Below are positions 7,741-39,573 of a stretch of 64,000 nt of DNA, one piece after another (position 1 is the first letter of the stretch; every line of letters begins with the position of its first letter). A program made the position numbers and the translations under genes. The notes under the pieces are model-generated. The model saw nothing but the letters and a program-made list of their open reading frames with translations. It ran no database searches and was not told the origin of the DNA. Where the stretch lies: the NCBI RefSeq assembly GCF_026125785.1, contig NZ_JAHCKL010000006.1, positions 124,001-188,000 of the forward strand, given 5' to 3'. This DNA is from Hydrogenophaga sp. Lineage in GTDB: Bacteria; Pseudomonadota; Gammaproteobacteria; Burkholderiales; Burkholderiaceae_C.

Positions 7741-7751
7741 TGGTATTACCA
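7741..7751. promoter_or_regulatory. Operator-like palindrome TGGTATTACCA
   Basis: Perfect dyad matching the TGGTNNNACCA core known for the FadR/PdhR branch of GntR regulators. It abuts the -35 box of the leftward promoter at 7712-7740. One of seven related sites in this block. Confidence 0.65.
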
Positions 7752-7798
7752 ATACATATGCATGGCATCTGAAAGAACACATGCGAACGGTTTTTTCC

Positions 7799-7827
7799 TC
7801 GAATGGTCAGTCCATTGCAGATATACT
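7799..7827 (+). promoter_or_regulatory. Probable promoter of the thiolase-like/DUF35/NIPSNAP/regulator operon
   Basis: -10 TATACT at 7822-7827 is a near-perfect match. The -35 region 17 bases upstream (TCGAAT) is poor, suggesting dependence on an activator or a weak basal promoter. GAGG sits 10 bases before the ATG at 7857. Confidence 0.45.
7802..7816. promoter_or_regulatory. Operator-like palindrome AATGG-N5-CCATT in the rightward promoter
   Basis: Perfect 5-base arms around TCAGT. It ends 5 bases before a TATACT -10 hexamer (7822-7827) of the thiolase-like gene, so a bound repressor would occupy the -35/-10 spacer. Confidence 0.65.
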
Positions 7828-7856
7828 GAACCGTCAACCAACAAGAGGAACACAGC

Positions 7857-9050
7857 ATGACGAGACGGGTTGCCATTGTCGGCACCAGCGCCATTCCGGT
7901 GGGTCGTCACCAGACCAGATCGGATGAGCCGCTGCAGGTGCTTGAACAGGAAATCATGAGCAAGCTGGTGGTGGACGCCGTGAAGGATGCGGGCGTGGAC
8001 CGCAAGGACATCCAGAGCCTGATCTTCACCGTCACCCGCCCCTACACGCTGCAGAAGTACTTCCACACCTTTCTGGTGAGTCACCTGCGCCTGCCTTGCA
8101 CGGGCAACGTGATGGAGGTGATGGGCAATGGCATGACCGCCGCGCTGGCCTTCGACCAAGCCTGCAACGAGATCATGCTGGGGCGCACCGACGTGGCGCT
8201 GGCCCTGGGCATCAACATGGAGGCCGCCACGCCGTCCGTGGACCATGCCATGAGCAGCATGCGCTCTACGGGCGACGTGGACTTCCACGCCACCGCCGGC
8301 TTCATCCCGATTTCCTGGTACGCCATGGACGCCATGCGCTACATGCACGACCATGGCGCGACCCGTGAACAGTTCGGGTCGGTGGCGGTGAAAAACCGCC
8401 ACCACGCCTCGCTCAATCCGCTGGCGCAGTACCGCAAGCCCATCACCCTGGAAGAGGTGGTGGCCCAGCGCCCCATCGTCGAGCCGCTGGGCCTCTACGA
8501 CGTGCCCGGCCGCAGCGACGGCGCAGCCTGCCTGGTGCTGGCCTCTGAAGAGGTCGCCAAGTCGCTCGGACGCCCGTATGTGCTGGTGCGAGGCCGGGGT
8601 TTCTTCCACGATGGTTCGCACCAGATCAACGAAGTCCCCAACGACATGACCGAGCTGATCGCGGCCAAGCAGGCTTCGGCCACCGCGTACAAGGAAGCCG
8701 GCATCGGCGCGGACGACATCGACTTTGCCGAGTTCTATGCCCCCTGCACCATCGTCGAGATCCTGGTCAGCGAGGCGGTGGGTTTCTTCAAGCGCGGCCA
8801 GGGTGCGCCGGGTGCGCTGGAAGGGCAGACGCGCCTGGGCGGACGCATCCCCATTTCCACGTCTGGCGGCCTCACCTCGCGTGGCCACCCGGCTTACGTG
8901 ACCTCGCTCTACAACATGGTCGAAGTGGCCGACCAGTTGCGCGGCCGTGCCGGCGACCGCCAGGTCAAGGACGCCCGCCTGGGCCTGGCCACGGGCGAAC
9001 TCGGCAACTACAACGCCGCCCTGATTCACGTGCTGGAGGCCGTGCGATGA
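7857..9050 (+). CDS. Thiolase-superfamily (SCP2/lipid-transfer-like) protein without the nucleophilic cysteine
   Basis: 397 residues with the thiolase fold signatures: AIVGTSAIPVGR at the N-terminus, the catalytic-loop region near 85-97 and GGLTSRGHP near the C-terminus. Where a thiolase carries the acylated Cys the sequence reads V-M-G-N-G, with Met89 at the expected Cys position. The C-terminal Cys-G motif is replaced by GELGNYN. The GHP histidine is kept, and a Tyr lies in the EFYAPCT segment. It overlaps the DUF35 gene by four bases, and such pairs form heteromeric complexes in other bacteria and archaea. It therefore probably catalyses aldol/retro-aldol or acyl-transfer chemistry on a CoA ester with its DUF35 partner, not classical thiolysis. 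Confidence 0.82.
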   Translation: MTRRVAIVGTSAIPVGRHQTRSDEPLQVLEQEIMSKLVVDAVKDAGVDRKDIQSLIFTVTRPYTLQKYFHTFLVSHLRLPCTGNVMEVMGNGMTAALAFDQACNEIMLGRTDVALALGINMEAATPSVDHAMSSMRSTGDVDFHATAGFIPISWYAMDAMRYMHDHGATREQFGSVAVKNRHHASLNPLAQYRKPITLEEVVAQRPIVEPLGLYDVPGRSDGAACLVLASEEVAKSLGRPYVLVRGRGFFHDGSHQINEVPNDMTELIAAKQASATAYKEAGIGADDIDFAEFYAPCTIVEILVSEAVGFFKRGQGAPGALEGQTRLGGRIPISTSGGLTSRGHPAYVTSLYNMVEVADQLRGRAGDRQVKDARLGLATGELGNYNAALIHVLEAVR

Positions 9051-9469
9051 CCCTCGAACTGATTCCCGTCGCCCGCAAGCGGGCCTACCCGCCGCGCGTC
9101 TCCGCGTTCACCCAACCTTTCTGGGAAGGCCTGTCCCAGGGGCGCTGGCAGTCGACCTGCTGCCAGGCCTGCGGCAAGTTCACCTTTCCGCCCAAAAAGG
9201 TCTGCCCGCACTGCTGGTCCGAGGACATGGTCTGGAAGGACCTCAGTGCACGCGGCACGCTCTATTCATGGACCCGCATCCATGCCGCGCCCAAAGTGTT
9301 CACCGAGGAGTCGCCGTACGCGGTCTGCGTGGTGGACCTGGACATCGGCCTGCGCATCGCCACCCGCATGATCGAGCGCGAAGGCATCGAGTTCAAGCCG
9401 GGCATCCCCATGGAACTGGTCGTGCTGCAGTACGAGGATGGCCCGCTGTTCGCCTCGCGGCCGGCTTGA
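9047..9469 (+). CDS. DUF35 OB-fold protein with zinc ribbon, partner of the upstream thiolase-like protein
   Basis: 140 residues. The N-terminal helix (FTQPFWEGLSQGR) leads into a rubredoxin-like zinc ribbon with C39-x2-C42 and C53-x2-C56, then an OB-fold containing GTLYSWTRIH. This is the ChsH2/OB-fold architecture that binds acyl-CoA and docks on thiolase-like subunits. The start codon overlaps the thiolase-like stop (ATGA), which supports equimolar expression of a complex. A second, independent pair of the same kind lies at 21964-23615 on the other strand. Confidence 0.88.
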   Translation: MTLELIPVARKRAYPPRVSAFTQPFWEGLSQGRWQSTCCQACGKFTFPPKKVCPHCWSEDMVWKDLSARGTLYSWTRIHAAPKVFTEESPYAVCVVDLDIGLRIATRMIEREGIEFKPGIPMELVVLQYEDGPLFASRPA

Positions 9470-9509
9470 AGCCACACCCCCCCATTTTTCCAACCTGACG
9501 GAGACAAGC

Positions 9510-9830
9510 ATGTTCTACGAACTGCGTACCTACACCTGCCTGCCGGGCAAGTTGCCCATCGTGCTCAAGCGCTTCGAGACCGCCACCCTGGGCCTGTTCA
9601 AGAAACACGGCTTTCGGCGCGGCCCCCTGTTCACCGTGGCCGTGGGCGACGACAACCTGCAGATCAAGTACATCCTGGAATGGGACTCGCACGAGCAGCG
9701 CGACAAGGCCTGGGTGGCTTTCCGCAACGACCCTGAGTGGGCCAAGGCACTGGCCGAGAGCGAGAAGGACGGTCCGGTGGTGGCCAAGATCAGCAACGAG
9801 CTGCTGATGGCCGTGCCGTTCTCGGTGTGA
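9510..9830 (+). CDS. NIPSNAP-family protein
   Basis: 106-residue ferredoxin-like alpha/beta barrel protein beginning FYELRTYTCLPGKLP, the standard NIPSNAP opening (YELRxY-x4-G). The start at 9510 follows GGAG by 7 bases. Small NIPSNAP proteins are frequent in aromatic, terpenoid and CoA-thioester catabolic clusters, where a role in binding or isomerising an intermediate is suspected but unproven. It lies 40 bases after the DUF35 gene and is probably in the same transcript. I cannot assign a reaction. Confidence 0.82.
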   Translation: MFYELRTYTCLPGKLPIVLKRFETATLGLFKKHGFRRGPLFTVAVGDDNLQIKYILEWDSHEQRDKAWVAFRNDPEWAKALAESEKDGPVVAKISNELLMAVPFSV

Positions 9831-9927
9831 CCCGCGTCACCCCGCGCGCGCGTGGCGTGTGTATTCGGCGACCATCGCCAACCGGCCGGTCGGTAAAATG
9901 AGCGCACCGTTCACTCCGACTACACGC

Positions 9928-10671
9928 ATGAACCACGCACCCGCATCCGCGCTAGGTTTCGCCCCGATCACGCCGCAGCGCGCCTTCGAGGAGATCGCCA
10001 ACCAGATCCGGGAACTGGTGGCCACCGGCAAGCTCAAGCCGGGTGACCGCCTGCCGGCCGAGCGCGAGCTGTCGGCCAAGTTCAATGTGAGCCGCAATAC
10101 GCTGCGCGAGGCGCTGCGTGCCCTGGAGCTCTCGGGCATGATCGAACTGCGCAAGGGCGCCACAGGCGGTGCTTTCGTGCTGCCCGGCAGCTCCGGCGTC
10201 ATCGTTAACGGCCTGCGCGACCTCTACCACCTCGGCGCGATCACGCCCCAGCATCTCACCGAAGCACGGACCTGGATCAGCGCCATCGTGGTCCGCGTGG
10301 CCTGTGAACGCCGGACCGACGAGGACCTCCAGGCGCTGGAGGAGAACGTGGCGGCGGCGGCCGCGGCTCAGAAGGCGGGCAACTTCGAGCTGCGCGCCGA
10401 GCTGCACCGCGACTTCCACAACATCCTGGCCAGCGCCACGCGCAACCCCATCATCCAGATCACCGTGGAAGGCATGAGCGAACTCATGCGCCAGTTCATC
10501 AGCGTCATCGGCCCCAGCGACAACGCCTACACGCTGCCTTCGCGCAAGCGCCTGCTCAAGCACCTGCGGGACCGCGATGCCGACGCCGCGGAAGCCGAGA
10601 TGACCAAGTTCCTGCAGCGCCTGGAGACCAAGTACCTGGATCTCTGGAACTCGCGCAAGCAGGCCGCCTGA
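9928..10671 (+). CDS. GntR-family regulator with FCD effector domain (regulator 1)
   Basis: 247 residues: winged helix (residues about 15-80, with GDRLPAERELSAKFNVSRNTLREALRALE) and FCD domain (about 95-235) that keeps the HRDFH motif for metal/ligand binding. I chose the ATG at 9928 because it aligns with the start of the paralogue at 36091 (both have FxPISPQR or FAPITPQR about 10 residues in); in-frame ATGs at 9859 and 9898 would add unrelated residues. It ends the 7857 operon and is convergent with the flavoprotein at 10687. Likely binds one or more of the TGG-N5-CCA palindromes in this block, in response to a carboxylate or CoA intermediate. Confidence 0.88.
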   Translation: MNHAPASALGFAPITPQRAFEEIANQIRELVATGKLKPGDRLPAERELSAKFNVSRNTLREALRALELSGMIELRKGATGGAFVLPGSSGVIVNGLRDLYHLGAITPQHLTEARTWISAIVVRVACERRTDEDLQALEENVAAAAAAQKAGNFELRAELHRDFHNILASATRNPIIQITVEGMSELMRQFISVIGPSDNAYTLPSRKRLLKHLRDRDADAAEAEMTKFLQRLETKYLDLWNSRKQAA

Positions 10672-10686
10672 GCGTTCAAGGCGCCT

Positions 10687-12186
10687 TCACGCCAGGGGCT
10701 GCGGCGCAAGCCGCTGCGCAGCGAAGCGCCCGGCGCGCCGGCCGGAAGTCACGGCCCAGCAGATGTGGTGCCCATTGCCGGCCAGCAGCGCCCCTCCCTG
10801 CCCCACGGCGCCCGCCGCATAGAGGCGGGGAACCACCTCGTCACCGCGCAGCACCTGGTGGCTGGTGTTGACGGCCAGCCCGCCGTCGGTGATGACGATG
10901 CGGCTCTCCAGCGGGCCCAGCGCATGGAAAGGCCCCTGGACCACACCACCGGCCCGTGCAGTGTCTGTCACCAGGCCCGCGTTGTGGCTGTCGATGGCCT
11001 GGCGCAGGGCATCCGGCGGCAGGCCCACGCTGCTGGCCAAGGCTTCCAGGCTGTCGGCGCGGTGGTACAGGTCCGGGCGATGCCGCTGGTAGTCGGGCAG
11101 GTAGGCAAACGCCACGCCCGGCGCGGTGGACACATAGTGCGGAGGCCCGGAAAACATCTGCGCCACGCGGCTGTCGAACACCAGCCAGGCATGTCCTGCG
11201 GGCTGCTGCGCGATCGCCAGGCCTGGCTGCACCAGTTCGTCGACGAAGCGGCGACCTTCCCGGTTGACCAGCACGGCGCCCGCGCGCAACAGCGCAGCTT
11301 CCGGTCCGAGCGACGCGGTCATGAACGACATGACGAAGGGCCGGAACAACGATGCCGGCAAGCTGTTGAGCGCCCACTGCATGAGCTTGCCCAGCAGCCA
11401 TGACGGCGGCAGGCGCCGCACCAGGCTGGGCTGGCTGGGTTCCATGAAACGCAGCCCCGGACCGTAGACCACCTCGCCATTGACCATGCGTGCGCCCAAC
11501 GCCTCGCCCAGCTTGTGGCCATCGCCAGTGGCTGTGGGGTTGATGGCCGGAATGGCCGCGAGTTCGGGGCGGAAGCGCTGTTTGATCTCGGGGTCGTTGC
11601 TGTAGTCGCCAGAAGCCAGCACCACACCCGAGCGTGCCAGTACCTCCACCGGTTGGCCTCCGATGCGCGCGAGCGCACCGCGCACGCCGCCATCGCCCTC
11701 ATCACGCAGGATCTGCAACACCGGCGCGTCCAGCCGGATGTCCACACCCCGGCGGCGCGCCGCGCGCCCCAGGTAATAGGGATACGCGCGAGAGTTGGGC
11801 AGCACGTTGTGCATGCGCGGATGCCGGTGTGGCGGATCCGCCGTCGGGCCGTAGAAGCACAGGCCGTGCGACATCAGCCACTCCAGCGAGGCCGCCGCGT
11901 TGTCCACCAGCAGGCGCCGCAGGGCCAGGTTGTCCTTGCCGGCAAACGGGCCCATGAAGTGGTCCATGTCGGCGAAGTGCTCGTCCGGCGTGTCCACGAT
12001 GCCGGCCCGCTTCTGCAGGCTGGAGCCGGCCGCATTGATCGACCCCACGGAGAGGCGGCTGCTGCCACCGGGCATGGAATTCTTCTCCAGCACGATGACG
12101 CCGGCTCCGTGGTCCGCGGCCTCGATGGCGGCGGAAAGCCCGGAGGCGCCCGCACCAACGACCAGCACATCGCATTCGAGTTTCAT
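10687..12186 (-). CDS. FAD-dependent oxidoreductase (fumarate reductase/ketosteroid dehydrogenase-like flavoprotein)
   Basis: 499 residues with GAGASG at 11-16 (nucleotide loop), the acidic residue ending the second strand (VLEKNSMPGGSS) and a C-terminal FAD segment (LYAAGAVGQGGALLAGNG). It is shorter than the 586-residue flavoprotein at 4927 and only distantly similar, so it is a second dehydrogenase rather than a recent duplicate. The start overlaps the stop of the Bug receptor by four bases. Only 15 bases separate its stop from that of regulator 1 on the opposite strand. Probably dehydrogenates a ring or acyl intermediate; substrate unknown. Confidence 0.82.
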   Translation of the reverse strand: MKLECDVLVVGAGASGLSAAIEAADHGAGVIVLEKNSMPGGSSRLSVGSINAAGSSLQKRAGIVDTPDEHFADMDHFMGPFAGKDNLALRRLLVDNAAASLEWLMSHGLCFYGPTADPPHRHPRMHNVLPNSRAYPYYLGRAARRRGVDIRLDAPVLQILRDEGDGGVRGALARIGGQPVEVLARSGVVLASGDYSNDPEIKQRFRPELAAIPAINPTATGDGHKLGEALGARMVNGEVVYGPGLRFMEPSQPSLVRRLPPSWLLGKLMQWALNSLPASLFRPFVMSFMTASLGPEAALLRAGAVLVNREGRRFVDELVQPGLAIAQQPAGHAWLVFDSRVAQMFSGPPHYVSTAPGVAFAYLPDYQRHRPDLYHRADSLEALASSVGLPPDALRQAIDSHNAGLVTDTARAGGVVQGPFHALGPLESRIVITDGGLAVNTSHQVLRGDEVVPRLYAAGAVGQGGALLAGNGHHICWAVTSGRRAGRFAAQRLAPQPLA

Positions 12187-13160
12187 TCGGCTTTCAGTCC
12201 TGTACGGCGAATCAGGTCGGCCCAGCGGGCGGACTCGCTGCGCGCGATCTCGTTGAAGGCGGCCGGTGAGCTGTGCGTCGCCAGTGCCCCGACCCCGGCG
12301 TATTTCTCGCGGATTTCCGGCAGGGCCAGCACCTTGGCCAGCGCCTCGTTGAGACGGGCCACATGTTCGGGAGGCGTTCCGGCCGGCGCGAACAGGCCGA
12401 ACCAGACCTCGGCCGCATAGCCAGGCACCGTCTCGGCGATCGGGCGCACCCCCGGCAGCAGCGGGGCCGGGCGTTGCGAGGCCACACCCAACAGGCGCAA
12501 CTGCCCGGTACGCACGGCGCTCATCATCGTCGGGGAGGGCGTGGTGATCAGCGCCTTGACCTCACCCGTGCGCAAGGCCATGGTCATGGGGGCCTCGCCC
12601 TTGTAGGGCACATGCACCATGTTCAGGCCGGTGGCCTGGGAGAACAGCGCCGTGGCCATGTGGCCAAAGGACGCCGTACCCGCCGAACCGTATTCGATGC
12701 CGGCGGGGCGTGACCGGATGTAGTCGATGAACTCGGCCACGTTGTCGGCAGGCACCTCGTTGTTGACCACCAGGACCATGGGCGAAGTGGTCACCAGCGA
12801 CACGGCGGTGAAGTCGCGCAGCGCGTCGTAGCCGGCCTTGGGGTTGAGCAGCGGCGTGATGACGAAGCCGTTGTTCACGAACACCAGCGTGTGGCCGTCC
12901 GGCGCGGAGGTCGCCACCGCCTGGGTGCCGATGGCTCCGGATGCGCCGGGCTTGTTGTCCACGATGACGGTCTGGCCCAGCAGGCGGCCCAGAGGTTCGG
13001 CCATGGCACGGATCTGGAAATCCGACAGCCCGCCGGCGGGGTAAGGCACCACGATACGGATCGGCTTGGCCGGAAAGCCGCTGGCGGCTTGCGTCAAGAC
13101 GGGCCCACCTGCCAGCAGGGCAGCCGCACAGGCAAGGAAGACACGCCGGACGAGTTTCAT
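12183..13160 (-). CDS. Bug-family (TctC) periplasmic substrate-binding protein, signal peptide present
   Basis: 325 residues. N-terminal signal peptide (KLVRRVFLACAAALLAGG, cleavage near AQA) followed by the Bug opening PAKPIRIVVPYPAGG and the ligand-loop region KPGASGAIGTQAVATSAPDG. Bug proteins capture carboxylates and usually deliver them to a TctA/TctB membrane complex. No tctAB is adjacent; the only pair in the window is 34 kb away at 46623-48747. Translationally coupled to the flavoprotein at 10687. It probably captures the substrate, or a precursor, of the catabolic block. Confidence 0.9.
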   Translation of the reverse strand: MKLVRRVFLACAAALLAGGPVLTQAASGFPAKPIRIVVPYPAGGLSDFQIRAMAEPLGRLLGQTVIVDNKPGASGAIGTQAVATSAPDGHTLVFVNNGFVITPLLNPKAGYDALRDFTAVSLVTTSPMVLVVNNEVPADNVAEFIDYIRSRPAGIEYGSAGTASFGHMATALFSQATGLNMVHVPYKGEAPMTMALRTGEVKALITTPSPTMMSAVRTGQLRLLGVASQRPAPLLPGVRPIAETVPGYAAEVWFGLFAPAGTPPEHVARLNEALAKVLALPEIREKYAGVGALATHSSPAAFNEIARSESARWADLIRRTGLKAE

Positions 13161-13193
13161 GAGGGATCCAATGATAGGTACGTCAACGCAAAA

Positions 13194-13211
13194 GCCGCCT
13201 CGGAGGGCGGC
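13194..13211 (-). terminator. Rho-independent terminator downstream of the cupin gene
   Basis: 6-bp GC stem (GCCGCC/GGCGGC, loop TCGGAG) followed on the minus strand by TTTTGCGTTG, 38 bases past the cupin stop. It would separate the cupin from the Bug receptor gene downstream. Confidence 0.6.
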
Positions 13212-13248
13212 ATGTTGGCGGATGCGAGCAAGAGCGTGGCGGGAACGT

Positions 13249-13650
13249 TTACTTCAGTTCCTTGCCCGCGTGCTCGCCTTCCAGGAACTTGTTGGGCTTG
13301 AGAAAGAACGACAGCACCAGCGCGCCGCCAGGCGAGCGTGCGAGGTGGCGGTTGCCCTTGGGACGCCAGACGTAGTCGCCTTCGCGCACCTCGCCCTCGT
13401 CATCGACGATGCTGCCCGAGAGCACGTACGTCTGCTCGATCTCGACGTGTTCGTGCAGCGGAAGCTGCGTCCCCGGCTGCCAGCGGAACAGCGCGGTGAG
13501 CAGGCCGCTGGCGTCGTCCTGCATCAGGATCTTCATGTCGATGCCCGGCGTAGGCGTGGGCTTCCAGGGGATGCTCTGGACATCGACGTAGCGGGATTCG
13601 TCCTCGCCCAGCTTCTCGTGCTGGGGATGGAAAGGCGTGAACGCGGCCAT
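13249..13650 (-). CDS. Small cupin-domain protein
   Basis: 133-residue single-cupin protein. The first cupin motif is visible as HEHVEIEQTYVLSG (two metal-ligand His and the Glu), and the second ends in PKGNRH. The overall shape resembles ChrR-type cupins (anti-sigma C-terminal domain family) rather than ring-cleavage dioxygenases. AAGGAG stands 8 bases before the ATG. It lies 90 bases after the amidohydrolase with a terminator between, so it is read through only partly or has its own promoter. May bind or isomerise an intermediate; function unassigned. Confidence 0.82.
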   Translation of the reverse strand: MAAFTPFHPQHEKLGEDESRYVDVQSIPWKPTPTPGIDMKILMQDDASGLLTALFRWQPGTQLPLHEHVEIEQTYVLSGSIVDDEGEVREGDYVWRPKGNRHLARSPGGALVLSFFLKPNKFLEGEHAGKELK

Positions 13651-13694
13651 GGCGGCATGTCTCCTTGAGGTTGCAGGGAATCAGACGTGCAAAA

Positions 13695-13727
13695 GCGCCG
13701 GAACACGGCAAGACCATGTTCCGGCGC
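13695..13727 (-). terminator. Strong Rho-independent terminator after the amidohydrolase
   Basis: Perfect 11-bp stem GCGCCGGAACA/TGTTCCGGCGC with an 11-base loop, followed on the minus strand by TTTTGC. It sits 14 bases past the amidohydrolase stop. Confidence 0.8.
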
Positions 13728-13740
13728 CGCGAAGAGGGCA

Positions 13741-14982
13741 TCAGGCCTTCTTGCTGGCGGCCTCGTACTTGGCGAGCACTTCCTTGAAGCCAAACACCTT
13801 GGCGGCGTTCGTGCCCAGCACCTTGGCGCGGCTGATTTCGCTGATGCCGCCCATCTGCCGCTCAATGGCCTGGGCCGAATGCGGCCAGGTGCCTTCATGG
13901 TGCGGGTAGTCGTTGGCCCACATGAAGTTGTCCTGCAGGCCATGCTCTTCCATCAGGGCCAGGCCGGCGCGGTCTTCACCGAAGGTGGCGAAGCCCTTGG
14001 CCTTGAAGTAGTCCGAAGGCAGTGCCTTGAGCTTGGGGCGCACCCAGAAGTGGTGCTTCAGATAAGCCTCGTCCATGGCATCCAGCATCCATGGCACCCA
14101 GCCGATGCCGGCCTCGACGCTGCCGAACTTCAGCTCGGGGAAACGCTCGGCCACACCGGAGGCGCAGATGTTGACCAGGGGCTCCAGCGTGGGCGAGAGC
14201 GAGTGCACAACATAGTTCACCACGGCCCCACCCAGGCCGCGCGTGGTGCGCGGGTCCTTGCCGGTGGAGACGTGGAAGGACACCGGCACATCGGCCTCGA
14301 CGAAGCGGGCCCACATCGGGTCGAATTCCACCTTGTTGTAGTTCAGCTCATTGGTCTTGGGCGGGCCGAACAGCGGCTTGCAAGGCAGCGTGAAGTGGCG
14401 GAAACCCAGCTTCAGGCAGCGGTCAATTTCCTTCATCGTGGCTTCGATGTTGCCGGTGGCCAGAGCGGCGGCCGGCGAGAGGCGGTCCACGTAGGGACCG
14501 AAGTTCTCCCAGGCCCAGGTGTTGTAGACCTCGCACTGCGCGTGCGCGAAATCGGGGTCGAACGTGTACCACATGCCCAGACCCTTGCCAGGGAAGATGA
14601 CCTCGCCGTCGATGCCATCCATGTCCAGATCCTTGATGCGCTGTTCCACGCTCGGGCCGCGCTCGGAAGCGGTGGCGCCCGCCTTGGAGCGGGCCAGATC
14701 CTCGCCCTCCAGCTTGGCCAGGATCAGGCGGTCCGGCTGCTCGGAGGCTTCCATCTTGCGCCACTGCACGCCCTTCTCATCGATCCACACCTTGGGCAGA
14801 CGGTCGCGGTACTTGGCGTCGATGCGCTCGGCCCAGAGATTGCCGGGCTCGTTGGCATGCGTATCGGACGAAATCATCAGGTACTTGTTGGCAGCCCCGG
14901 GCTGGGCCGACTTGTCCCAGCCTTGCGCGCCGGGCGTGTTCAGGCGCCATTGATTGGCTTCGTTGACGACAATTTCGCTCAT
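13741..14982 (-). CDS. Amidohydrolase-2 family metal-dependent hydrolase/decarboxylase
   Basis: 413 residues, TIM-barrel amidohydrolase of the ACMSD-like subfamily. N-terminal strand SSDTHANEP carries the D-x-H metal pair, mid-protein VSFHVSTG supplies the next His, and WANDYPHHEG contains the C-terminal metal Asp. Members hydrolyse C-C or C-O bonds or decarboxylate aromatic acids. The start at 14982 is preceded by GAGGAT; upstream in-frame codons lie inside the promoter. Expressed from a near-consensus promoter overlapped by an operator-like palindrome and closed by its own terminator, so it is a single-gene regulated unit. Confidence 0.87.
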   Translation of the reverse strand: MSEIVVNEANQWRLNTPGAQGWDKSAQPGAANKYLMISSDTHANEPGNLWAERIDAKYRDRLPKVWIDEKGVQWRKMEASEQPDRLILAKLEGEDLARSKAGATASERGPSVEQRIKDLDMDGIDGEVIFPGKGLGMWYTFDPDFAHAQCEVYNTWAWENFGPYVDRLSPAAALATGNIEATMKEIDRCLKLGFRHFTLPCKPLFGPPKTNELNYNKVEFDPMWARFVEADVPVSFHVSTGKDPRTTRGLGGAVVNYVVHSLSPTLEPLVNICASGVAERFPELKFGSVEAGIGWVPWMLDAMDEAYLKHHFWVRPKLKALPSDYFKAKGFATFGEDRAGLALMEEHGLQDNFMWANDYPHHEGTWPHSAQAIERQMGGISEISRAKVLGTNAAKVFGFKEVLAKYEAASKKA

Positions 14983-15023
14983 GGTGAGAGATCCTCGTGG
15001 TGGTTGATCGGGCATTCGGTTTG

Positions 15024-15038
15024 AATGGTATGACCATT
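15024..15038. promoter_or_regulatory. Operator-like palindrome AATGGT-N3-ACCATT
   Basis: Perfect 6-base arms around ATG, with core TGGTATGACCA. It overlaps the -10 hexamer (15036-15041) of the amidohydrolase promoter, an ideal repressor position. Confidence 0.7.
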
Positions 15039-15065
15039 TTAGAAGCCTGACCGAAGCCCTGTCAA
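15036..15065 (-). promoter_or_regulatory. Near-consensus sigma70 promoter of the amidohydrolase
   Basis: Minus-strand -35 TTGACA (15060-15065, perfect) and -10 TAAAAT (15036-15041) with an 18-base spacer, 53 bases before the start codon. Confidence 0.7.
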
Positions 15066-15095
15066 GCCACGCCTGGCGGTTGGGCACAAAACGAA

Positions 15096-15128
15096 ACACC
15101 CCGCGGACGCACGGCGTCTGCGGGGTGT
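15096..15128 (-). terminator. Rho-independent terminator of regulator 2
   Basis: 15-bp stem (ACACCCCGCGGACGC with GCGTCTGCGGGGTGT, one G-T pair) and a 3-base loop, followed on the minus strand by TTTCGTTTTG. It begins 35 bases past the stop of the regulator at 15164 and insulates the amidohydrolase promoter from it. Confidence 0.8.
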
Positions 15129-15163
15129 CTGGCGTTGAACCGGGGGTGTGAGCGGGCCCGGGT

Positions 15164-30314: not shown

Positions 30315-30316
30315 GG

Positions 30317-31322: not shown

Positions 31323-31324
31323 GC

Positions 31325-32551: not shown

Positions 32552-32600
32552 GGTTGTCTCCTGTTGGATGAGTGAAGTGAGCCCTGAACGAAAACGCGGA

Positions 32601-35141
32601 TCAGGCAGGCTCGGCCTGGGAAACAGCGGTTGGCGCAGCCTCGACGATGCCGAGCAGGCGAGCCTGCAGAGCGGAATCGGCGGCCAGAGCAGAGGCCTGG
32701 CCCTCGAACGCCACGCGGCCATTGACCAGCACCACGGCGCGGTCGACGATGGAGAGCACCTGCTCGGCGTGGTGCTCCACCAGCACCATGGCCACGCGCC
32801 CGCGCAGCTTGAGCACCGCGGCCATCACCTCGTTGACCACCGCCGGCGCCAGGCCCTCGAAAGGCTCGTCCAGCAGGATCAGGCGGCTGGGCGTGAGCAG
32901 CGAGCGCGCGATCGCCACCATCTGGCGCTCGCCACCGGAGATGTTCTCCGCACGCGAGCGGCGCACCGTGGCCAGGCGCGGAAACAGCTCGTAGATCTCC
33001 TCCAGCGACATCCCGCCCTTGCGCATCGCGATGAGCAGGTTGTCCTGCACCGTGAGGTTGGGGAACAGGCGCCGGCCCTCGGGCACCATGGACATGCCCA
33101 GCCGGTTGATCTCGAACGGGCGCAGGGCCTGGATCTCGCGCCCGCCCCATACCACGCGCCCCTCGTCGGCGGGCAGCATGCCGTAGAGCGCGCGCAGCAG
33201 CGTGGTCTTGCCCACGCCATTGCGCCCCAGCAGGGCCACGGCCTCGCCTTCGCGCACCGTGAGGTTCACGCCGTCCAGGATGCGGCCCCCGCCATAGCCG
33301 GCGGCCAGCCCGCTGGCCTGCAGCAGCACCGGCGCATCGGCACGCACCGGCGCGGCCGTGGCCGCCGACACCCCGCGCTCCTGCGGAGGGCTGCCCAGGT
33401 AGGCCCGCACCACCTCCGGGTTGGCCGCCACCTCGGCCGGCTTGCCATCGGCAATGAGACGGCCCTGGTGCAGCACGGTGATGCGGTCCGAGAGCGCGAG
33501 CACGCGGTCGATGTCGTGTTCGATCAGCACCACCGCGTGCGAACGCGCCAGCGCCTGGATCAGGCCGGCCACGCGCTCGCGGTCCGCCTCGGCCAGACCC
33601 GCCAGCGGCTCGTCCAGCAGCAGCAGCCGGGCCTCCGTGGCCAGCGTGATGCCAATCTCCAGCAGGCGCCGCTCGCCGTGCGAGAGATCCGTGCAGAGCT
33701 CACCCGCGCGCGCGCTCAGGCCCACCGCCTCCAGCACCGACCAGGTGCGCGCATTGACCTCCTCGTCGGCGTGCGCGTCGCGCCAGGGCGCGTGCGCCGC
33801 CGGCCGCGTGGCCTGCACCGCCAGGCGCACGTTCTCGAACGCGCTGAGGTGGGTGAACACGCTCACGATCTGGAACGAGCGCGCCAGCCCCAGGCGGATG
33901 CGTTTGTGCATCGGCAGGCGGGTGATGTCCTGCCCCAGGAAGCGCACCACCCCGCCATCGGCCGGCAATACGCCGCTGAGCATGTTGAAGAACGTGGTCT
34001 TGCCCGCGCCATTGGGGCCGATGAAGCTGTGCAGCGTGCCCGCGTGCACGTCAAAGTCGTAGCCCGCGGCAACCGTGAGCGAGCCGAACTTCTTGCTCAG
34101 CCCGCGCACGCTGAGCAGCGGCTCAGCCGAGGCGCCCGCGTGGGCAGCGGCCGCCGGCACATAGGGCGTGATCCGCGCCGGGCGCTCGGGAATGCCTTCG
34201 CGCACCAGCGTCCAGCCCTTGAGCCCGATGGCGCGCCGCAGCAGGCCGTGGATCCCCTCGGGCGCGGCCAGCGCGACCACGATGATGATGGGCGCGAACA
34301 CCAGCCACCAGTTGTTGATCAGGGTGCTGAGCTGGTCCTCCAGCACGATGAACAGCACCGCGCCCCAGAGCGAGCCCACAAAGTGGTGCATGCCGCCCAG
34401 CACCGTCATCAGCAGTGCGTCGGCCGCGTGCTCCCAGCTCAGCGGATTGGCGTACACGCCGCGCATGAACAGGGTCAGCAGCCCGCCGGCCAGCCCGGTG
34501 ATCGCGGCCGAGAGCACAAAGCCGGCCAGCTTGACGCGCTGCACGTCGTAGCCCAGGCTGGAGGCGCGCTGCTCGTTGTCCCGGATGGCCTGGAACAGCC
34601 GGCCCAGCGGCGAATGCGCCAGGCGCCACATCAGCCAGAGCGTGACCAGCACGGCCCCCACCACGAAAAGGTGGAAGGCCAGGTCCGACTCCAGCACCGG
34701 GCGCGGCACGCGCTGCAGGCCGTTCTCGCCGCCGGTGAAGTCCGTCCACTTGTAGGCGATCTCGTAGGTGATCATGGCGCAGGCCAGGCTCAGCAGCGAG
34801 AAGTACAGCCCGCGCCGGCGCAGGATGAGTGCGCCCACCGGCAGCGCCACCAGCGCGGTGAAGACCACCGCGAACGCCAGGCCGACGAACTCGTTGAGAT
34901 CGGCGAACCAGTGCAGCAGCGAGAGCGCGGCCGCGTAGCTGGCCAGGCCGAAGAACACCGAGCCACCAAAGGGCACCAGGCCCAGGTAGCCCACCAGCAG
35001 GCCGATGCCGGCCGCATACAGCACATAGATGGCGATCTGGGTGACACGGCCCAGCGGCAGCGTGGTCACCAGGGTCAGCAGGCTGAGCACCAGCAGCGCG
35101 GCCGCCACTTGCGCCACGGGATGTTTCAAGACTCGGATCAT
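32601..35141 (-). CDS. Triple-fusion ABC importer subunit: LivM permease + LivG ATPase + LivF ATPase
   Basis: One continuous 846-residue frame. Residues 1-300 are a LivM-type permease (about eight helices, GSVFFGLASYAAALS early and GLLTLFMRGVYANPLSWEHAADALLMTVLGG late). Residues 345-590 are a LivG-type ATPase: Walker A GPNGAGKTT 375-383, signature LSHGE 486-490, Walker B LLLLDEP 506-512. Residues 605-830 are a LivF-type ATPase: Walker A GRNGVGKTT 639-647, ISGGE 734-738, LILLDEP 754-760. Linkers are Ala/Pro-rich. The start overlaps the LivH stop (ATGA). The open frame extends upstream to 35576 inside livH but has no meaning there. All catalytic motifs are intact, so the fusion looks functional. 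Confidence 0.92.
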   Translation of the reverse strand: MIRVLKHPVAQVAAALLVLSLLTLVTTLPLGRVTQIAIYVLYAAGIGLLVGYLGLVPFGGSVFFGLASYAAALSLLHWFADLNEFVGLAFAVVFTALVALPVGALILRRRGLYFSLLSLACAMITYEIAYKWTDFTGGENGLQRVPRPVLESDLAFHLFVVGAVLVTLWLMWRLAHSPLGRLFQAIRDNEQRASSLGYDVQRVKLAGFVLSAAITGLAGGLLTLFMRGVYANPLSWEHAADALLMTVLGGMHHFVGSLWGAVLFIVLEDQLSTLINNWWLVFAPIIIVVALAAPEGIHGLLRRAIGLKGWTLVREGIPERPARITPYVPAAAAHAGASAEPLLSVRGLSKKFGSLTVAAGYDFDVHAGTLHSFIGPNGAGKTTFFNMLSGVLPADGGVVRFLGQDITRLPMHKRIRLGLARSFQIVSVFTHLSAFENVRLAVQATRPAAHAPWRDAHADEEVNARTWSVLEAVGLSARAGELCTDLSHGERRLLEIGITLATEARLLLLDEPLAGLAEADRERVAGLIQALARSHAVVLIEHDIDRVLALSDRITVLHQGRLIADGKPAEVAANPEVVRAYLGSPPQERGVSAATAAPVRADAPVLLQASGLAAGYGGGRILDGVNLTVREGEAVALLGRNGVGKTTLLRALYGMLPADEGRVVWGGREIQALRPFEINRLGMSMVPEGRRLFPNLTVQDNLLIAMRKGGMSLEEIYELFPRLATVRRSRAENISGGERQMVAIARSLLTPSRLILLDEPFEGLAPAVVNEVMAAVLKLRGRVAMVLVEHHAEQVLSIVDRAVVLVNGRVAFEGQASALAADSALQARLLGIVEAAPTAVSQAEPA

Positions 35142-36007
35142 GAGAAGTGTTCCCAATGCTCGCCAAAGAGGCCACGCGGACGCACCAGCAGGATGGCGGC
35201 CATCAGCAGGTACATCGCCACGCCGGCGGCCTGCGGGAAGAACTGGGTGCTCATGGCCGTGACCAGGCCCACCAGCAGGCCGGCCACCACCGCGCCGCCG
35301 TAGGAGCCCAGGCCGCCGATGGTGACGATGACGAAGGCCGGCATGATGGCCTGCGCGGACATGCTGGGCGTGACCGACCACAGGGGCGCGGCCAGCACCC
35401 CGGCCGCGCCGGCCAGCATGCAGCCCACGCCGAAGGCGCCGGTGAGCACCAGAGGCAGGTTGATGCCCAGCATGCCGACCATCTGCGGGTCGCGGCTGCC
35501 CGCGCGCAGGATGCGGCCGTAGGGCGTGAAGACCAGGAAGGCCCAGAGCAGCAGCAGCAGCGCCACGGTGATGCACAGCACCGCCAGGCGGTAGGTGGTG
35601 GTGAGAATGGGTCCGTACTCGACGAAGCCGGAGAACAGCTCCGGCGGCGACAGCGGCTGCGCGCTGGAGCCCCAGGTGGTGCGGATCACGGCTTCGATGA
35701 ACAGCGAGAGCGCGAAGGTCAGCACCAGCGTCATCAGCGGGTCTTTGCCGTAGAGCCGGCGCACCAGCACGCGCTCCACCACGATGCCCACCAGCCCCAC
35801 CCCAAGGGGCGCGAGCACCACCGCCGCCCAGCCAAACTCGCGCTGCAGCGTCAGCGCGAAGTAAGCGCCCAGAGCGAAGAATGCCCCGTGCGCCACGTTC
35901 ACGATGCCCAGCAGCCCAAAGACTATCGACAGCCCGATCGAGATCAGGATGAACAGAAAACCCAGCACCAGCCCGTTGACCGTCTGGGAAAGTATCGCGT
36001 CAAGCAT
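35138..36007 (-). CDS. livH: LivH-type permease of branched-chain amino-acid-family ABC importer
   Basis: 289 residues, about eight membrane segments, with NGLVLGFLFILISIGLSIVFG and IVNVAHGAFFALGAYFA, the hallmark first helices of LivH. GMLGINLPLV and GLGSYGGAVVAGLLVGLV are the conserved cytoplasmic loop and last helices. First gene of the importer operon. The ATG lies only 7 bases after a good -10 element (36014-36019), and no Shine-Dalgarno sequence is evident, so the mRNA may be leaderless. Pairs with the permease half of the fusion protein. Confidence 0.92.
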   Translation of the reverse strand: MLDAILSQTVNGLVLGFLFILISIGLSIVFGLLGIVNVAHGAFFALGAYFALTLQREFGWAAVVLAPLGVGLVGIVVERVLVRRLYGKDPLMTLVLTFALSLFIEAVIRTTWGSSAQPLSPPELFSGFVEYGPILTTTYRLAVLCITVALLLLLWAFLVFTPYGRILRAGSRDPQMVGMLGINLPLVLTGAFGVGCMLAGAAGVLAAPLWSVTPSMSAQAIMPAFVIVTIGGLGSYGGAVVAGLLVGLVTAMSTQFFPQAAGVAMYLLMAAILLVRPRGLFGEHWEHFS

Positions 36008-36013
36008 CTCGTC

Positions 36014-36043
36014 AATATATCATTGGACCAACCAATGAAGCAA
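36014..36043 (-). promoter_or_regulatory. Promoter of the importer operon, possibly giving leaderless mRNA
   Basis: Minus-strand -35 TTGCTT (36038-36043) and -10 TATATT (36014-36019) with an 18-base spacer. Transcription would begin at or within one or two bases of the livH ATG at 36007. Confidence 0.55.
36021..36037. promoter_or_regulatory. Operator-like palindrome CATTGG-N5-CCAATG
   Basis: Perfect 6-base arms around ACCAA, filling the spacer between -35 and -10 of the importer promoter and lying 54 bases before the divergent regulator 3 gene. Suits repression and autoregulation. Confidence 0.72.
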
Positions 36044-36090
36044 TAGAAATTGCCCGGGCAACAACCATCCTTTGCCACTACGATTGCGAC

Positions 36091-36939
36091 ATGAAAACAT
36101 CCGCTCCCACCTCCAGCTTCGGCATCCAGCCGATAAGTCCCCAACGCATCTACCAGGAAGTGGCGAGCCAGTTGCGGCGCAACATTTCCGAAGGGAAGCT
36201 CCGGCCCGGTGACAAACTGCCACCCGAGCGCGATCTGGCGCAGATGTTCGGCGTCAGCCGCAACACCATGCGCGAGGCGTTGCGGGCACTCGAACTCAGC
36301 GGCCTCATCGAGCTCAAGCTGGGTTCCGCCGGTGGCGCTTTCGTGCTGCCGGGCAGCTCCAACGCGGTGGTCAACGGCATGCGCGACCTGTACTTCCTGG
36401 GCGCCATCACCCCCGAGCACCTCACGGCGGCGCGCATTTCCATCAGCTCAGCCGTGATCCGCATGGCCTGCGAGAACATGACCGACGAGGACCTGGCCGA
36501 ACTGGAGCGCAACGTGGCCATGGCCGAGGAGATGCACAAGGCCGGCAGCTTCGAGGAGCGCACCAAGTACCACCAGGCTTTTCACGTGCTGCTCGCCAAG
36601 GCCACGCACAACCCCATCCTGCTGGCCACGACCGAGGGCATCATGGAAATCACGCGCCAGTTCGTGAAGGCCATCGGCCCGACCGAGGACCAGGACTACA
36701 CCCTGCCCTCACGCAAGCGGCTGCTCAACCACCTGCGCAAGCGCGATGCAGAGAAGGCCGTGAAGGAAATGGCCTCCGCCCTGACCAAGCTCCAGCAGGG
36801 CTACATGGTCAAGGCGCGTGGTCTGCCGCCGGGCAAGCCGGCATCGACCGCGCCCGCCGCTAGCGCTGAACCTGCACGCCGGCCGCCTCGCGGTCCCACG
36901 CCAAAGAAAGGTCGCGCTCGAGCTCCTGGCGCAGCCTGA
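36091..36939 (+). CDS. GntR-family regulator with FCD domain (regulator 3), basic C-terminal tail
   Basis: 282 residues. Winged helix with GDKLPPERDLAQMFGVSRNTMREALRALE; FCD domain retaining YHQAFH. Close paralogue of regulator 1 (both have VLPGSS-x3-VNG-x-RDLY-x-LGAIT and YTLPSRKRLL-x-HLR). Residues about 245-282 form a Pro/Ala/Lys/Arg-rich tail absent from regulator 1. The last 80 bases of the gene overlap the 3' end of the convergent acyl-CoA ligase, so the tail is encoded opposite the ligase C-terminus. Divergent from the importer operon with a shared palindrome. Confidence 0.88.
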   Translation: MKTSAPTSSFGIQPISPQRIYQEVASQLRRNISEGKLRPGDKLPPERDLAQMFGVSRNTMREALRALELSGLIELKLGSAGGAFVLPGSSNAVVNGMRDLYFLGAITPEHLTAARISISSAVIRMACENMTDEDLAELERNVAMAEEMHKAGSFEERTKYHQAFHVLLAKATHNPILLATTEGIMEITRQFVKAIGPTEDQDYTLPSRKRLLNHLRKRDAEKAVKEMASALTKLQQGYMVKARGLPPGKPASTAPAASAEPARRPPRGPTPKKGRARAPGAA

Positions 36940-38509
36940 ACTTCTCCACCTTCTGGTTCACCGTGGTCGGCAGTTCAGCGCGGAACTGGATATAGCGCGG
37001 CACCATGAAGTAGGCCATGTTGCGCTGGCAGTGCTCGATGATCTGCCGCTCGTCCAGCGCGCTGCCGTCCCTGCGCACCACCACCGCCCCGACTTCCTCG
37101 TCGTTGTTGCTCGTGGCCAGCGGCACCACGGCGGCGTTGGCCACCGCCGGGTGGGTGGCGATGATCTGCTCCACCTCGAAAGCCGAGATGTTCTCTCCAC
37201 GCCGGCGGATACAGTCCTTCTTGCGATCGACGAACCAGAGAAAGCCGTCCTCGTCCCGCATGCCACGGTCTCCGGTGTGAAACCACTGGTTGCGGTGCGC
37301 GGCCAGCGTGGCTTCGGGCATGCGGTAGTAGCCGGTGGCCGCACGCCAGGGCTCGTCGCTCTGCATCACGATCTCCCCCACCTCGCCGGGGCCGACCTCG
37401 AAATCGTCGTCGTCCACGATGCGAACCTGGAAGCCGCGGCGCTGGCGGCCGATGGAGCCCAGCTTGTCGCGCGGATCGTGCTCGGTGAACGAGGTCACCA
37501 TGCCGAAATCCGAAAGGCCGTAGTTGTTCATCGCGCGCAGGCCAAAGCGCTGTTCGAATTCGGCCGCGTACTTGGGCGTGGGCGCCATGCTCACCAGACG
37601 CAGGTCGTTGTCGGCGTCTTGGGGGCTGGGGGGTTGGCTCCAGAGAAAGCTGGACATGGCACCGAGGAAGTTGGTGATGGTCGCGCGGTGATCCCTGATC
37701 TCGCCCCAGAAGCGCGTGACGGAGAAGCGGCGCGACAGCACCACCGAGGCCCCGCAGACCATGGCCGCACCAGTGGCCGCGAGCAGCGCGTTGTTGTGGA
37801 ACAGCGGCAGGCAGACATAGAACACGTCGGACGCGCGGTACCCCTGCGCCTCGGCCGCGCTGGTGCCGTAGGTGAGCGCCGCCGCGTGCGACAGCATGCT
37901 GCCCTTGGAAGGACCGGTGGTGCCGGAGGTGTAGGCCAGCATCAGCAGGTCCGAGCAGCGCACGTCCTGGCCGCACGGCGCATCGTCGGACATCGCCACA
38001 CGCTCGGCGAAGTCGGCCACCGGGCGGCCATCGGCGCGCACCGGCGCGGCCCCGGCCTCGCCGGTGGCCACCACCATCACCCGGCGGATCCCGGGCAGGT
38101 CCGGCAGCACCTCGTTGAGGCGCTCGACGAGCGTGTCCTCCACCACCACCGACTCGCAGTCCGACTGGCTCAGGTAGTAACGCAACAGCTCGCCGCGCGC
38201 GGCGGTGTTCACCGGCACCGACACCGCGCCGAGTTTGCCGATGCCCAGGAAGAGCGCGATGTGCTCCGCGCAATTGCCCAGAAACACGCCCACATGGCTG
38301 CCCCGCGTCACGCCGAAGCCGGCGAGCGCGTGCGCCGCGCGGTTGGACCAGTTGTCCATCTCGCGGTAGGTGAAGCGGCGGCCGCCCGCGGTCTCGGTCA
38401 GGAAGACCTTGTCCGGCCGCACGGCGACCTGGCGAGCCAGCACGCGGGGAAAGCTCAGGTCCCGCAGCGCATAGGTGTCGGCCTGAACGGCCGCTTGGGG
38501 ATCGGGCAT
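36860..38509 (-). CDS. AMP-dependent acyl-CoA synthetase/ligase, paralogue of 27560
   Basis: 549 residues. P-loop TSGTTGPSKGSM, TGDRGMRDEDGFLWFVDRKKD and RRRGENIS motifs intact; NQKVEKFRLRQELE near the C-terminus includes the catalytic-lysine region of the family. High similarity by eye to the ligase at 27560 along its full length, suggesting duplication followed by specialisation to a second carboxylate. Starts 10 bases after the Bug receptor stop and is co-transcribed with it. Its C-terminal coding end overlaps that of regulator 3 on the other strand. Confidence 0.9.
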   Translation of the reverse strand: MPDPQAAVQADTYALRDLSFPRVLARQVAVRPDKVFLTETAGGRRFTYREMDNWSNRAAHALAGFGVTRGSHVGVFLGNCAEHIALFLGIGKLGAVSVPVNTAARGELLRYYLSQSDCESVVVEDTLVERLNEVLPDLPGIRRVMVVATGEAGAAPVRADGRPVADFAERVAMSDDAPCGQDVRCSDLLMLAYTSGTTGPSKGSMLSHAAALTYGTSAAEAQGYRASDVFYVCLPLFHNNALLAATGAAMVCGASVVLSRRFSVTRFWGEIRDHRATITNFLGAMSSFLWSQPPSPQDADNDLRLVSMAPTPKYAAEFEQRFGLRAMNNYGLSDFGMVTSFTEHDPRDKLGSIGRQRRGFQVRIVDDDDFEVGPGEVGEIVMQSDEPWRAATGYYRMPEATLAAHRNQWFHTGDRGMRDEDGFLWFVDRKKDCIRRRGENISAFEVEQIIATHPAVANAAVVPLATSNNDEEVGAVVVRRDGSALDERQIIEHCQRNMAYFMVPRYIQFRAELPTTVNQKVEKFRLRQELERDLSLAWDREAAGVQVQR

Positions 38510-38519
38510 GGGGTGTCGC

Positions 38520-39506
38520 TCAGTCGGTGGAGATGTTGTTGCGGCGGATGATGTCCTTCCAGCGGTCGTTGTGCCGCACCAGCAGCGCGCGGAATTCCTC
38601 GGGCGTGCTGCTGGTGGCGATCACGCCGGCCTTGGCCATGGTCTCCTTGTAGCTGGGATCGGCCACCGCCACCTTCATGGCTTCGGCCAGCCGGGCCACC
38701 ACGGGCGCGGGCGTACCGGCCGGCGCGAGCATGCCGAAGAAAATCTCGAAGGTCAGGTCCGGCGCGCCAGCCTCGGTCACGGTGGGCAGGTCGGGCACCG
38801 CGGGATCTCGCTTGGGCGTGGTCACGGCCAGCCCCTTGAGGCGGCCGGCCTTGACCAGTTGGGACGCCGCCGAGGTGGAGCCCATCATCATGTCGACCTG
38901 CCCGGACATCATGGCGTTGAAGCCATCGATCTCGCCCTTGAACGGCACGTGCAACATATCGATGCCGGCCGAACTCTTGAACAGCTCACCGATGAGGTGC
39001 GGTGCGCTGCCATTGCCAGACGAAGCGAAGGTCAGCTTGCCCGGCTGCGACTTGGCCAGCGCCACCAGTTCCGCCACGCTGGAGACGGGCAGTTGCGGGC
39101 GCGTGGTCATGATCCAGGACGAAATGGCCGCCAGGCTCACCGGCGCGAAGGCCGTCAGCGGGTCGTACATGGGCGTCTTGCTCAGGTGCGGCGCCACCGA
39201 CATCGGGCTGTTGCCTCCCCAGCCCAGGGTGTAGCCATCGGGCGCAGCCCGCGCCACCACATTCATGCCGATCATGCCGCTGGCGCCGGTGCGGTTTTCC
39301 ACCACGAAGGGTTGGCCGAGCTGCTTGGTCAGCAGCGCGGCAATCAGGCGCGCGGAGACGTCGGTGGCCCCTCCGGCGGTGAACGGCACCACGATGGTCA
39401 CGCTCCTGATCGGGTAGGTCGCCGGCTGCTGGGCATGCAACGGGGTGCTCGCCATGGCCAGCAGGGCGCCGGCGCCGAACAAAAGCTTGGGGAAAAAGTT
39501 CTTCAT
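38520..39506 (-). CDS. Bug-family (TctC) periplasmic substrate-binding protein
   Basis: 328 residues. Signal peptide (KNFFPKLLFGAGALLAMAS, cleavage near LHA), then YPIRSVTIVVPFTAGGATD and RTGASGMIGMNVVARAAPDG, the Bug-family ligand loops. No tctAB beside it. It shares a bidirectional control region with the tandem CoA-transferase; -35 TTGATT (39568-39573) and -10 TACGAT (39545-39550) with a 17-base spacer are visible on its strand, with the palindrome 39556-39570 inside the spacer. Pairing with an acyl-CoA ligase in one operon suggests uptake followed directly by CoA activation. Confidence 0.9.
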   Translation of the reverse strand: MKNFFPKLLFGAGALLAMASTPLHAQQPATYPIRSVTIVVPFTAGGATDVSARLIAALLTKQLGQPFVVENRTGASGMIGMNVVARAAPDGYTLGWGGNSPMSVAPHLSKTPMYDPLTAFAPVSLAAISSWIMTTRPQLPVSSVAELVALAKSQPGKLTFASSGNGSAPHLIGELFKSSAGIDMLHVPFKGEIDGFNAMMSGQVDMMMGSTSAASQLVKAGRLKGLAVTTPKRDPAVPDLPTVTEAGAPDLTFEIFFGMLAPAGTPAPVVARLAEAMKVAVADPSYKETMAKAGVIATSSTPEEFRALLVRHNDRWKDIIRRNNISTD

Positions 39507-39528
39507 GTCTCCGGCCTTTTCAAGTTCA

Positions 39529-39557
39529 TGCACAGTGGACCCGTATCGTAGTCTAAT
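39529..39557 (+). promoter_or_regulatory. Candidate promoter of the tandem CoA-transferase gene
   Basis: -35 TGCACA (39529-39534) and -10 TCTAAT (39552-39557), 17-base spacer, 31 bases before the ATG at 39589. The palindrome 39556-39570 covers the -10 end and the probable start point. Confidence 0.45.
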
Positions 39558-39573
39558 TGGTCCATCCAATCAA
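39545..39573 (-). promoter_or_regulatory. Candidate promoter of the Bug receptor/ligase operon
   Basis: Minus-strand -35 TTGATT (39568-39573) and -10 TACGAT (39545-39550) with a 17-base spacer, 38 bases before the ATG at 39506. It overlaps the rightward promoter face to face. Confidence 0.45.
39556..39570. promoter_or_regulatory. Operator-like palindrome ATTGG-N5-CCAAT
   Basis: Perfect 5-base arms around TCCAT. Located where two face-to-face promoters overlap, so one bound dimer could control both the Bug/ligase operon and the CoA-transferase. Confidence 0.68.

Follow-up and report, generated by a model that had tools for sequence, protein, structure and literature searches.

Predicted operators in the catabolic block

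The window analysed here is a stretch of 64,000 nucleotides (64 kb) from Hydrogenophaga sp. (contig NZ_JAHCKL010000006.1, positions 124,001 to 188,000). It contains a catabolic block with seven related palindromes, or dyads, between its genes, and with three regulators that combine a GntR helix-turn-helix (HTH) with an FCD domain, here called FCD1, FCD2 and FCD3. It is highly probable that the dyads, which we predict to be operators, belong to one catabolic regulon under these paralogous FadR-type repressors. The block, its predicted operators and the genes with FCD domains are the following.

2597..42186, no strand: putatively co-regulated catabolic block of ~40 kb, from Pfam/NCBIfam-annotated genes and site placement
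7739..7753, no strand: predicted operator, symmetric class TGGT-ATT-ACCA, between the flavin reductase-FCD gene (-) and the thiolase...FCD1 operon (+)
7802..7816, no strand: predicted operator, polar class TGGT-CAG-TCCA, second site in the same divergent region as 7739
15024..15038, no strand: predicted operator, symmetric, of the amidohydrolase gene 13741 (-), overlapping the -10 of a TTGACA promoter
16133..16147, no strand: predicted operator, polar with the TGGT side distal to FCD2, between FCD2 (-) and 16206 (+)
23651..23665, no strand: predicted operator, central triplet TGG/CCA, between the thiolase-like gene 22434 (-) and the cyclase gene 23719 (+)
36022..36036, no strand: predicted operator, triplet TGG/CCA, between a branched-chain-type ATP-binding cassette (ABC) permease operon (-) and FCD3 (+)
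39556..39570, no strand: predicted operator, triplet TGG/CCA, between the TctC receptor gene 38520 (-) and the tandem coenzyme A (CoA)-transferase gene 39589 (+)
6684..7667, minus strand: flavin reductase fused to FCD, without GntR HTH, candidate regulon member (Pfam, NCBIfam)
9928..10671, plus strand: FCD1, GntR HTH and FCD regulator (Pfam), last gene of the thiolase operon; longest open reading frame from 9859
15164..16015, minus strand: FCD2, GntR HTH and FCD regulator (Pfam, scanned with a longer N-terminus to 16276)
36091..36939, plus strand: FCD3, GntR HTH and FCD regulator (Pfam)

The first-pass annotation had described seven dyads with perfect or nearly perfect arms. All seven exist, two of them starting 1-2 bp away from where they had been placed (7739 instead of 7741 and 36022 instead of 36021). 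The arms are as described, perfect in five dyads and imperfect in two (AATGG..CCAAT at 7739 and 23651), and each of the seven matches AWTGG-N5-CCAWT exactly. Full TKGT-N3-ACMA boxes are present at 7739 and 15024; the other five sites consist of one TGGT and one TGGA half. Within the block, a site is found in five of five divergent gaps, in none of four convergent gaps and in one of seven same-strand gaps longer than 60 bp, the latter upstream of the amidohydrolase gene. From this placement, most transcription units of the block carry a site at their promoter. The enzymes encoded in the block are flavin adenine dinucleotide (FAD)-dependent dehydrogenases, a Rieske oxygenase and reductase, CoA ligases, type III CoA-transferases, short-chain dehydrogenases/reductases and amidohydrolases; two thiolase-like proteins with ChsH2-like partners, TctC receptors and a branched-chain-type ABC transporter are also encoded. 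One of the FAD-dependent dehydrogenases resembles 3-ketosteroid and 4-oxocyclohexenecarboxylate dehydrogenases and scores below the cut-offs for both.

Distribution of the sites in the genome

The genome containing the window comprises 4.17 Mb in 46 contigs, and the reversed pattern served as control. AWTGG-N5-CCAWT occurs 21 times in this genome, with seven of these sites in the window, while the control occurs once; the dyads are therefore not due to chance. A simple gene caller based on codon usage places 18 of the 21 sites in intergenic DNA; the three coding sites carry C or G at an edge of the core. The stricter pattern AWTGGTN3WCCAWT yields 15 sites, all intergenic and seven of them in the window, and its control yields none. 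A short version, WTGGN5CCAW, is found eight times in the window at 3.64 expected, a mild enrichment only, as five of 100 shuffles reach at least eight; this bare 13-bp pattern would not have been convincing by itself. The 15-bp pattern with at most one mismatch is found 12 times at 2.93 expected, a number that none of 100 shuffles reaches.

Could the palindromes be chance products, or by-products of promoters in AT-rich intergenic DNA, where -10 boxes end in AAT? The arms do coincide with the AAT of a -10 at some promoters, and the enrichment of the bare pattern is mild. However, 60 first-order Markov simulations of the intergenic DNA of the window gave no site, none is found upstream of 47 related flavin reductase genes, and the G-C positions of the dyads are conserved. 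The first-pass annotation had named an equal density of such palindromes in unrelated intergenic regions as the finding that would speak against operators. In the intergenic DNA near 15 other FCD genes (14 stretches, 11,560 bp) we find no site, compared with seven in 4,932 bp in the window (Fisher p=2e-4). An origin by chance or as by-product is already contradicted by these data and is extremely improbable.

Conservation and co-occurrence with FCD genes

The closest related cluster, from Hydrogenophaga genome G029 (genomes are cited by our handles), has 12 exact sites, all intergenic, within one 65-kb stretch. Six of the seven window dyads lie in five intergenic regions that could be aligned; 87 of 90 columns are identical within these dyads versus 417 of 725 elsewhere. 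Two of the three mismatches are an artefact of a slice cut at a gene start, and the conserved columns include the G-C parts of the dyad. For site 39556, the fetched G029 stretch contains no counterpart region. The wider set of cluster genomes consists of 13 found via flavin reductase-FCD loci plus G028 and G416, that is 15 handles for 14 distinct genomes (the rows of G416 equal those of G498). Named carriers include Hydrogenophaga, Variovorax and Xenophilus, plus two metagenome-assembled genomes (Pseudomonadota; Burkholderiales). Strict sites occur in all of them, and the control is absent apart from a single match in G503, on one strand only. When the filter was relaxed slightly, 133 sites were counted in 18 cluster regions, which come from 15 genomes and were picked because they contain the cluster; 131 of these sites lie outside genes and 113 are exact. 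The cluster itself is rare: among 399 sampled genomes of the family, only one besides our own has an FCD2 match at E<=1e-75.

The sites also follow the FCD genes. Of the 80 flavin reductase-FCD loci returned, we examined 60. All 13 that have FCD1 in the divergent operon also have the operator, which lies just upstream of the flavin reductase-FCD gene or, in four loci, overlaps its called start. None of the 47 loci without FCD1 has it, and there even the bare core is lacking at the upstream position. Among 59 other genomes of the genus, the ten with an FCD2-like gene (E<=1e-35, a grouping chosen after the hits were known) have 1-14 strict sites each, 4.4 on average, against 0.51 in the 49 others (Mann-Whitney p=2e-7; 8e-7 leaving out G029). 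Regrouping three genomes with weaker FCD2 matches (E 1e-20 to 1e-26, no site in any) gives 3.4 versus 0.54 (p=9e-5). The sites, their placement and conservation and their link to FCD genes are all directly computed. As a separate observation, AATGGTTSAACCATT sites are found in other genomes of the genus (G041, G048, G050, G003, G033 and G047), on contigs with more distant, FCD2-like FCD genes.

The FCD regulators

The proteins encoded at 9928, 15164 and 36091 had been taken for FCD regulators in the first-pass annotation, and Pfam agrees: all three exceed the cut-offs for PF00392 and PF07729, the FadR-type domain layout. FCD1 and FCD3 share 60% identity, and FCD2 is 36-43% identical to either (blastp). 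The best NCBIfam match is PdhR for FCD2 and NanR for FCD1 and FCD3 (113.8 and 112.5 bits, cut-off 260). The PdhR equivalog cut-off of 330 bits is not reached by FCD2 (110.9), FCD1 (88.1) or FCD3 (78.6). By domain content FCD1-3 are members of the FadR subfamily, and by the curated cut-off they are not PdhR.

Together with the paralogues C23, C2 and C5 of the same genome, FCD1-3 have a wing that is two residues longer than in the other 13 GntR-FCD proteins of the genome. All six long-wing proteins lack the EH of the FCD metal site, a site described for the TM0439 and LldR type (PMC4746285). In columns aligned by eye, the three metal-site histidines are incomplete in FCD1-3, with RK/RR at the EH position and the last H missing; EH, DH or QH is kept at the motif position in 12 of the 13 short-wing proteins, also by eye. 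The recognition helices are constant within each paralogue without exception: VSRPAVREA in 15 aligned FCD2, VSRNTLREA in 16 FCD1 and VSRNTMREA in 13 FCD3 sequences, one FCD2-like G029 protein (47% identity) being assigned to another paralogue in this count. Each regulator gene has a site at its own promoter. The centre of the site precedes FCD2 by 125 bp and FCD3 by 62 bp, and FCD1 has the pair 7739/7802 at its operon promoter; the FCD1-like gene in G028 has a site 111 bp upstream.

The site type agrees with what is known of this subfamily, as the first-pass annotation had anticipated. According to the portion of Suvorova et al. 2015 (PMC4494728) that we consulted, FadR-subfamily sites are TKGT/ACMA boxes spaced by 3 nt, often located in divergons and single or paired; the sites here share this spacing, the mid-divergon placement and the double sites. 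In the sections consulted of PMC7660256, the PdhR box of Escherichia coli is given as AATTGGTnnnACCAATT. PdhR, too, is a GntR-FCD regulator with a TGGT-N3-ACCA core, A/T arms and multiple dispersed targets. From the fit to consensus and PdhR box, the sites look like FadR/PdhR-type operators. Unlike in the PdhR regulon, the arms read AATGG or ATTGG, polar sites (TGGT/TGGA) are numerous, three sister regulators share one cluster, and the targets are catabolic instead of belonging to pyruvate metabolism. The switch is of a well-known kind, and for the present regulon we found no description in open-licence literature. It is not named in the consulted text of Suvorova et al. 2015 (PMC4494728), supplementary files and RegPrecise tables aside. 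Judged by title, the open-licence literature yielded no description of the regulators of this cluster or of AATGGT/ACCATT with GntR for it.

A conserved regulator other than the FCD proteins of the block could in principle bind the sites, given that FCD binding is a prediction and that a palindrome of this size would suit several families. We regard this as very unlikely, since the motif fits the FadR-subfamily consensus, the sites track FCD1 in the flavin reductase-FCD loci and FCD2-like genes in the genus, and Pfam finds no other transcription factor than the regulators at 9928, 15164 and 36091 among the 34 called genes of 2597-42186. Conservation, co-occurrence at both levels and consensus fit together argue for the proposal of the first-pass annotation that one operator family ties the block together under FCD regulators.

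Promoter geometry and proposed mechanism

At the amidohydrolase promoter, TTGACA starts 25 bp upstream of the dyad (27 in the window) in 14 of 14 genomes including our own. The last AAT of its -10 (TAGAAT or TATAAT; TAAAAT in the window) is the first AAT of the dyad. Read by eye, site 23651 overlaps a possible -35 toward the cyclase gene (TGGACC-N17-TATACT), and the orthologues of 39556 overlap the promoter spacer. Such overlap is the geometry of a repressor, and FCD1-3 would probably repress from these sites.

In the proposed mechanism, FCD1-3 would bind the dyads, repress and respond to a metabolite of the pathway. In the absence of inducer, FCD dimers would occupy AWTGGT-N3-WCCAWT sites that overlap the -35, the spacer or the -10, and would thereby obstruct RNA polymerase at the majority of operons in the ~40-kb block as well as at some promoters beyond it. 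Comparable sites do occur outside 2597..42186. Binding of a pathway intermediate to the FCD domain would then release the repressor. Our guess from the surrounding CoA enzymes is that this inducer may be an acyl-CoA or a carboxylate.

Central triplet and paralogue specificity

The 133 cluster sites fall into 93 symmetric and 40 polar ones, and TGGA-N3-TCCA does not occur. This absence is a weak argument for a required TGGT half, as by our estimate only ~3 would be expected by independence given 40 polar sites in 133. The divergent region of flavin reductase and FCD1 has a symmetric site in 12 of 13 cluster regions read (G506 has a polar one only); a second site of the 7802 type is polar in six of six carriers, and seven other regions have no second site. 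Amidohydrolase sites are symmetric in 14 of 14 cases. The site upstream of FCD2 is polar (TGGT-N3-TCCA, TGGT distal) in all 15 distinct genomes, our own among them, with a triplet that varies among AAG, AAA, CAG, CTG and CAA.

The first-pass annotation had suggested that AATGG and ATTGG arms might distinguish between paralogues. We dropped this idea because one and the same orthologous promoter has AATGG in some genomes and ATTGG in others. It is the central triplet, not the arm, that tracks the neighbouring regulator. CCA/TGG is found at 13 of 13 thiolB sites, at ten of ten CoA-transferase/TctC sites (own included) and at seven of 11 FCD3 sites, but at none of 47 flavin reductase (12+6), amidohydrolase (14) and FCD2 (15) sites. 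The filter gave no site for two of the 13 FCD3 genes read, those of G497, where the sequence is TGGTTGGGCCA with G at the core edge, and of G498, where there is no match. The triplets of the flavin reductase and amidohydrolase sites are equal in nine of 12 genomes; this concerted change may be a single event and follows genome groups, so we rejected it as an assignment of a regulator.

These counts raise the possibility of split regulons, in which the arms are common and each paralogue prefers its own triplet: FCD3 would act on the TGG/CCA sites (23651, 36022 and 39556) and FCD1 and/or FCD2 on the rest, so that the block would consist of two adjoining regulons with limited cross-talk. We consider this a tentative but serious possibility, somewhat short of an even chance. 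Beyond the triplet counts, the recognition helices differ between paralogues, and the three TGG sites lie with FCD3 within ~5 kb in several Variovorax-type clusters (e.g. G504, G499, G500, G503). G028 lacks a third, FCD3-like match, and none of four sites read there is TGG-centred; the 8 kb covered in G028 did not show the target genes. On the other hand, four of 11 FCD3 sites have other triplets, the helices of FCD1 and FCD3 are nearly identical, and the sites of each promoter represent one inherited lineage. In addition, the thiolB triplet is part of the possible -35, and promoter constraint could fix it there. The most promising lead to a putative paralogue specificity is the triplet rule, weakened by this -35 overlap and by shared ancestry.

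A more elaborate operator code can be imagined, which we regard as unlikely. Shared AWTGG arms would let the three sister repressors meet, the triplet would pick the winner, and the conserved polar sites would serve as landing sites for heterodimers of two paralogues. The flavin reductase-FCD protein has an FCD half similar to theirs; it would sense the inducer of the repressors or form dimers with them and thereby link enzyme activity to transcription. Its FCD region is 31-36% identical to FCD1-3 and likewise lacks the EH metal motif. Relatives were fetched in 80 loci, mostly from Comamonadaceae. The predicted structure is of modest quality (mean predicted local distance difference test score, pLDDT, 71.8; predicted template modelling score, pTM, 0.49), and the 50 fold-search matches listed, of 658, are reductases aligned mostly to the reductase half; model and matches thus say little about the FCD half. 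Like the protein encoded at 6684-7667, the C1 reductase of p-hydroxyphenylacetate 3-hydroxylase from Acinetobacter (5zc2, 5zyr) combines a flavin reductase domain with an extra C-terminal domain. This domain is FCD in the former and MarR-like in C1. Judged by title, no description of a flavin reductase-FCD fusion or of GntR/FadR heterodimers was found in open-licence literature.

Assessment of the proposed regulon

Several observations weigh against one regulon under FCD1-3. At the level of the sites, TGGA replaces TGGT in one half of five of the seven window dyads, and the FCD3 promoter of G498 has no match to the pattern. Eight of the 15 strict sites in the genome lie outside the window. Four of these are flanked by a gene that is 62-93% identical to one in the G029 block. 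For the remaining four there is no such gene, or a match of just 31%, and some may serve other regulators or be chance. C23, C2 and C5, half of the six related FCD paralogues of the genome, have no site within the 3-kb loci examined. At the level of the comparisons, orthologous sites share ancestry, so that their numbers in different genomes cannot be treated as independent events. The 13 FCD1 loci are also the closest orthologues, so presence and absence alone do not separate ancestry from function, and the genus grouping is post hoc. Promoters were read by eye, and activation may apply where a site lies upstream of the -35.

A single regulon under paralogous FadR-type repressors nevertheless remains our preferred reading. 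It proposes a control logic for a large catabolic cluster that depends on CoA and is shared by genomes of the Hydrogenophaga, Variovorax and Xenophilus types, and the operator family predicts distant genes of the same pathway. With three paralogues whose helices are constant but different, and near-identical operators that vary naturally across 15 genomes, the cluster is a ready system for studying how duplicated repressors divide or share their targets.

Further genes and sites

Next to site 16133, 16206-17051 (+) encodes a protein of 281 amino acids that is 81-92% identical in related clusters where it adjoins the site. It has no convincing family: DUF1805 (28.5 bits) is just below its cut-off of 29.5, and a match to IMS (27.4 bits, above the cut-off of 23.2) was judged spurious. 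The following gene, 17048-18463 (+), encodes a membrane-protein-like product of 471 amino acids with no match in Pfam or NCBIfam. At 39589-42186 (+), a tandem pair of type III CoA-transferase domains is contained in a single protein. A further FCD paralogue with the helix IGRAAARDA is located near L234 10081 (G504:C12:50081), and the same gene is present in G498, G499, G500, G501 and G503. It has TTCAA/TTGAA-centred sites at the gene start and nearby, as if these were a fourth operator type.

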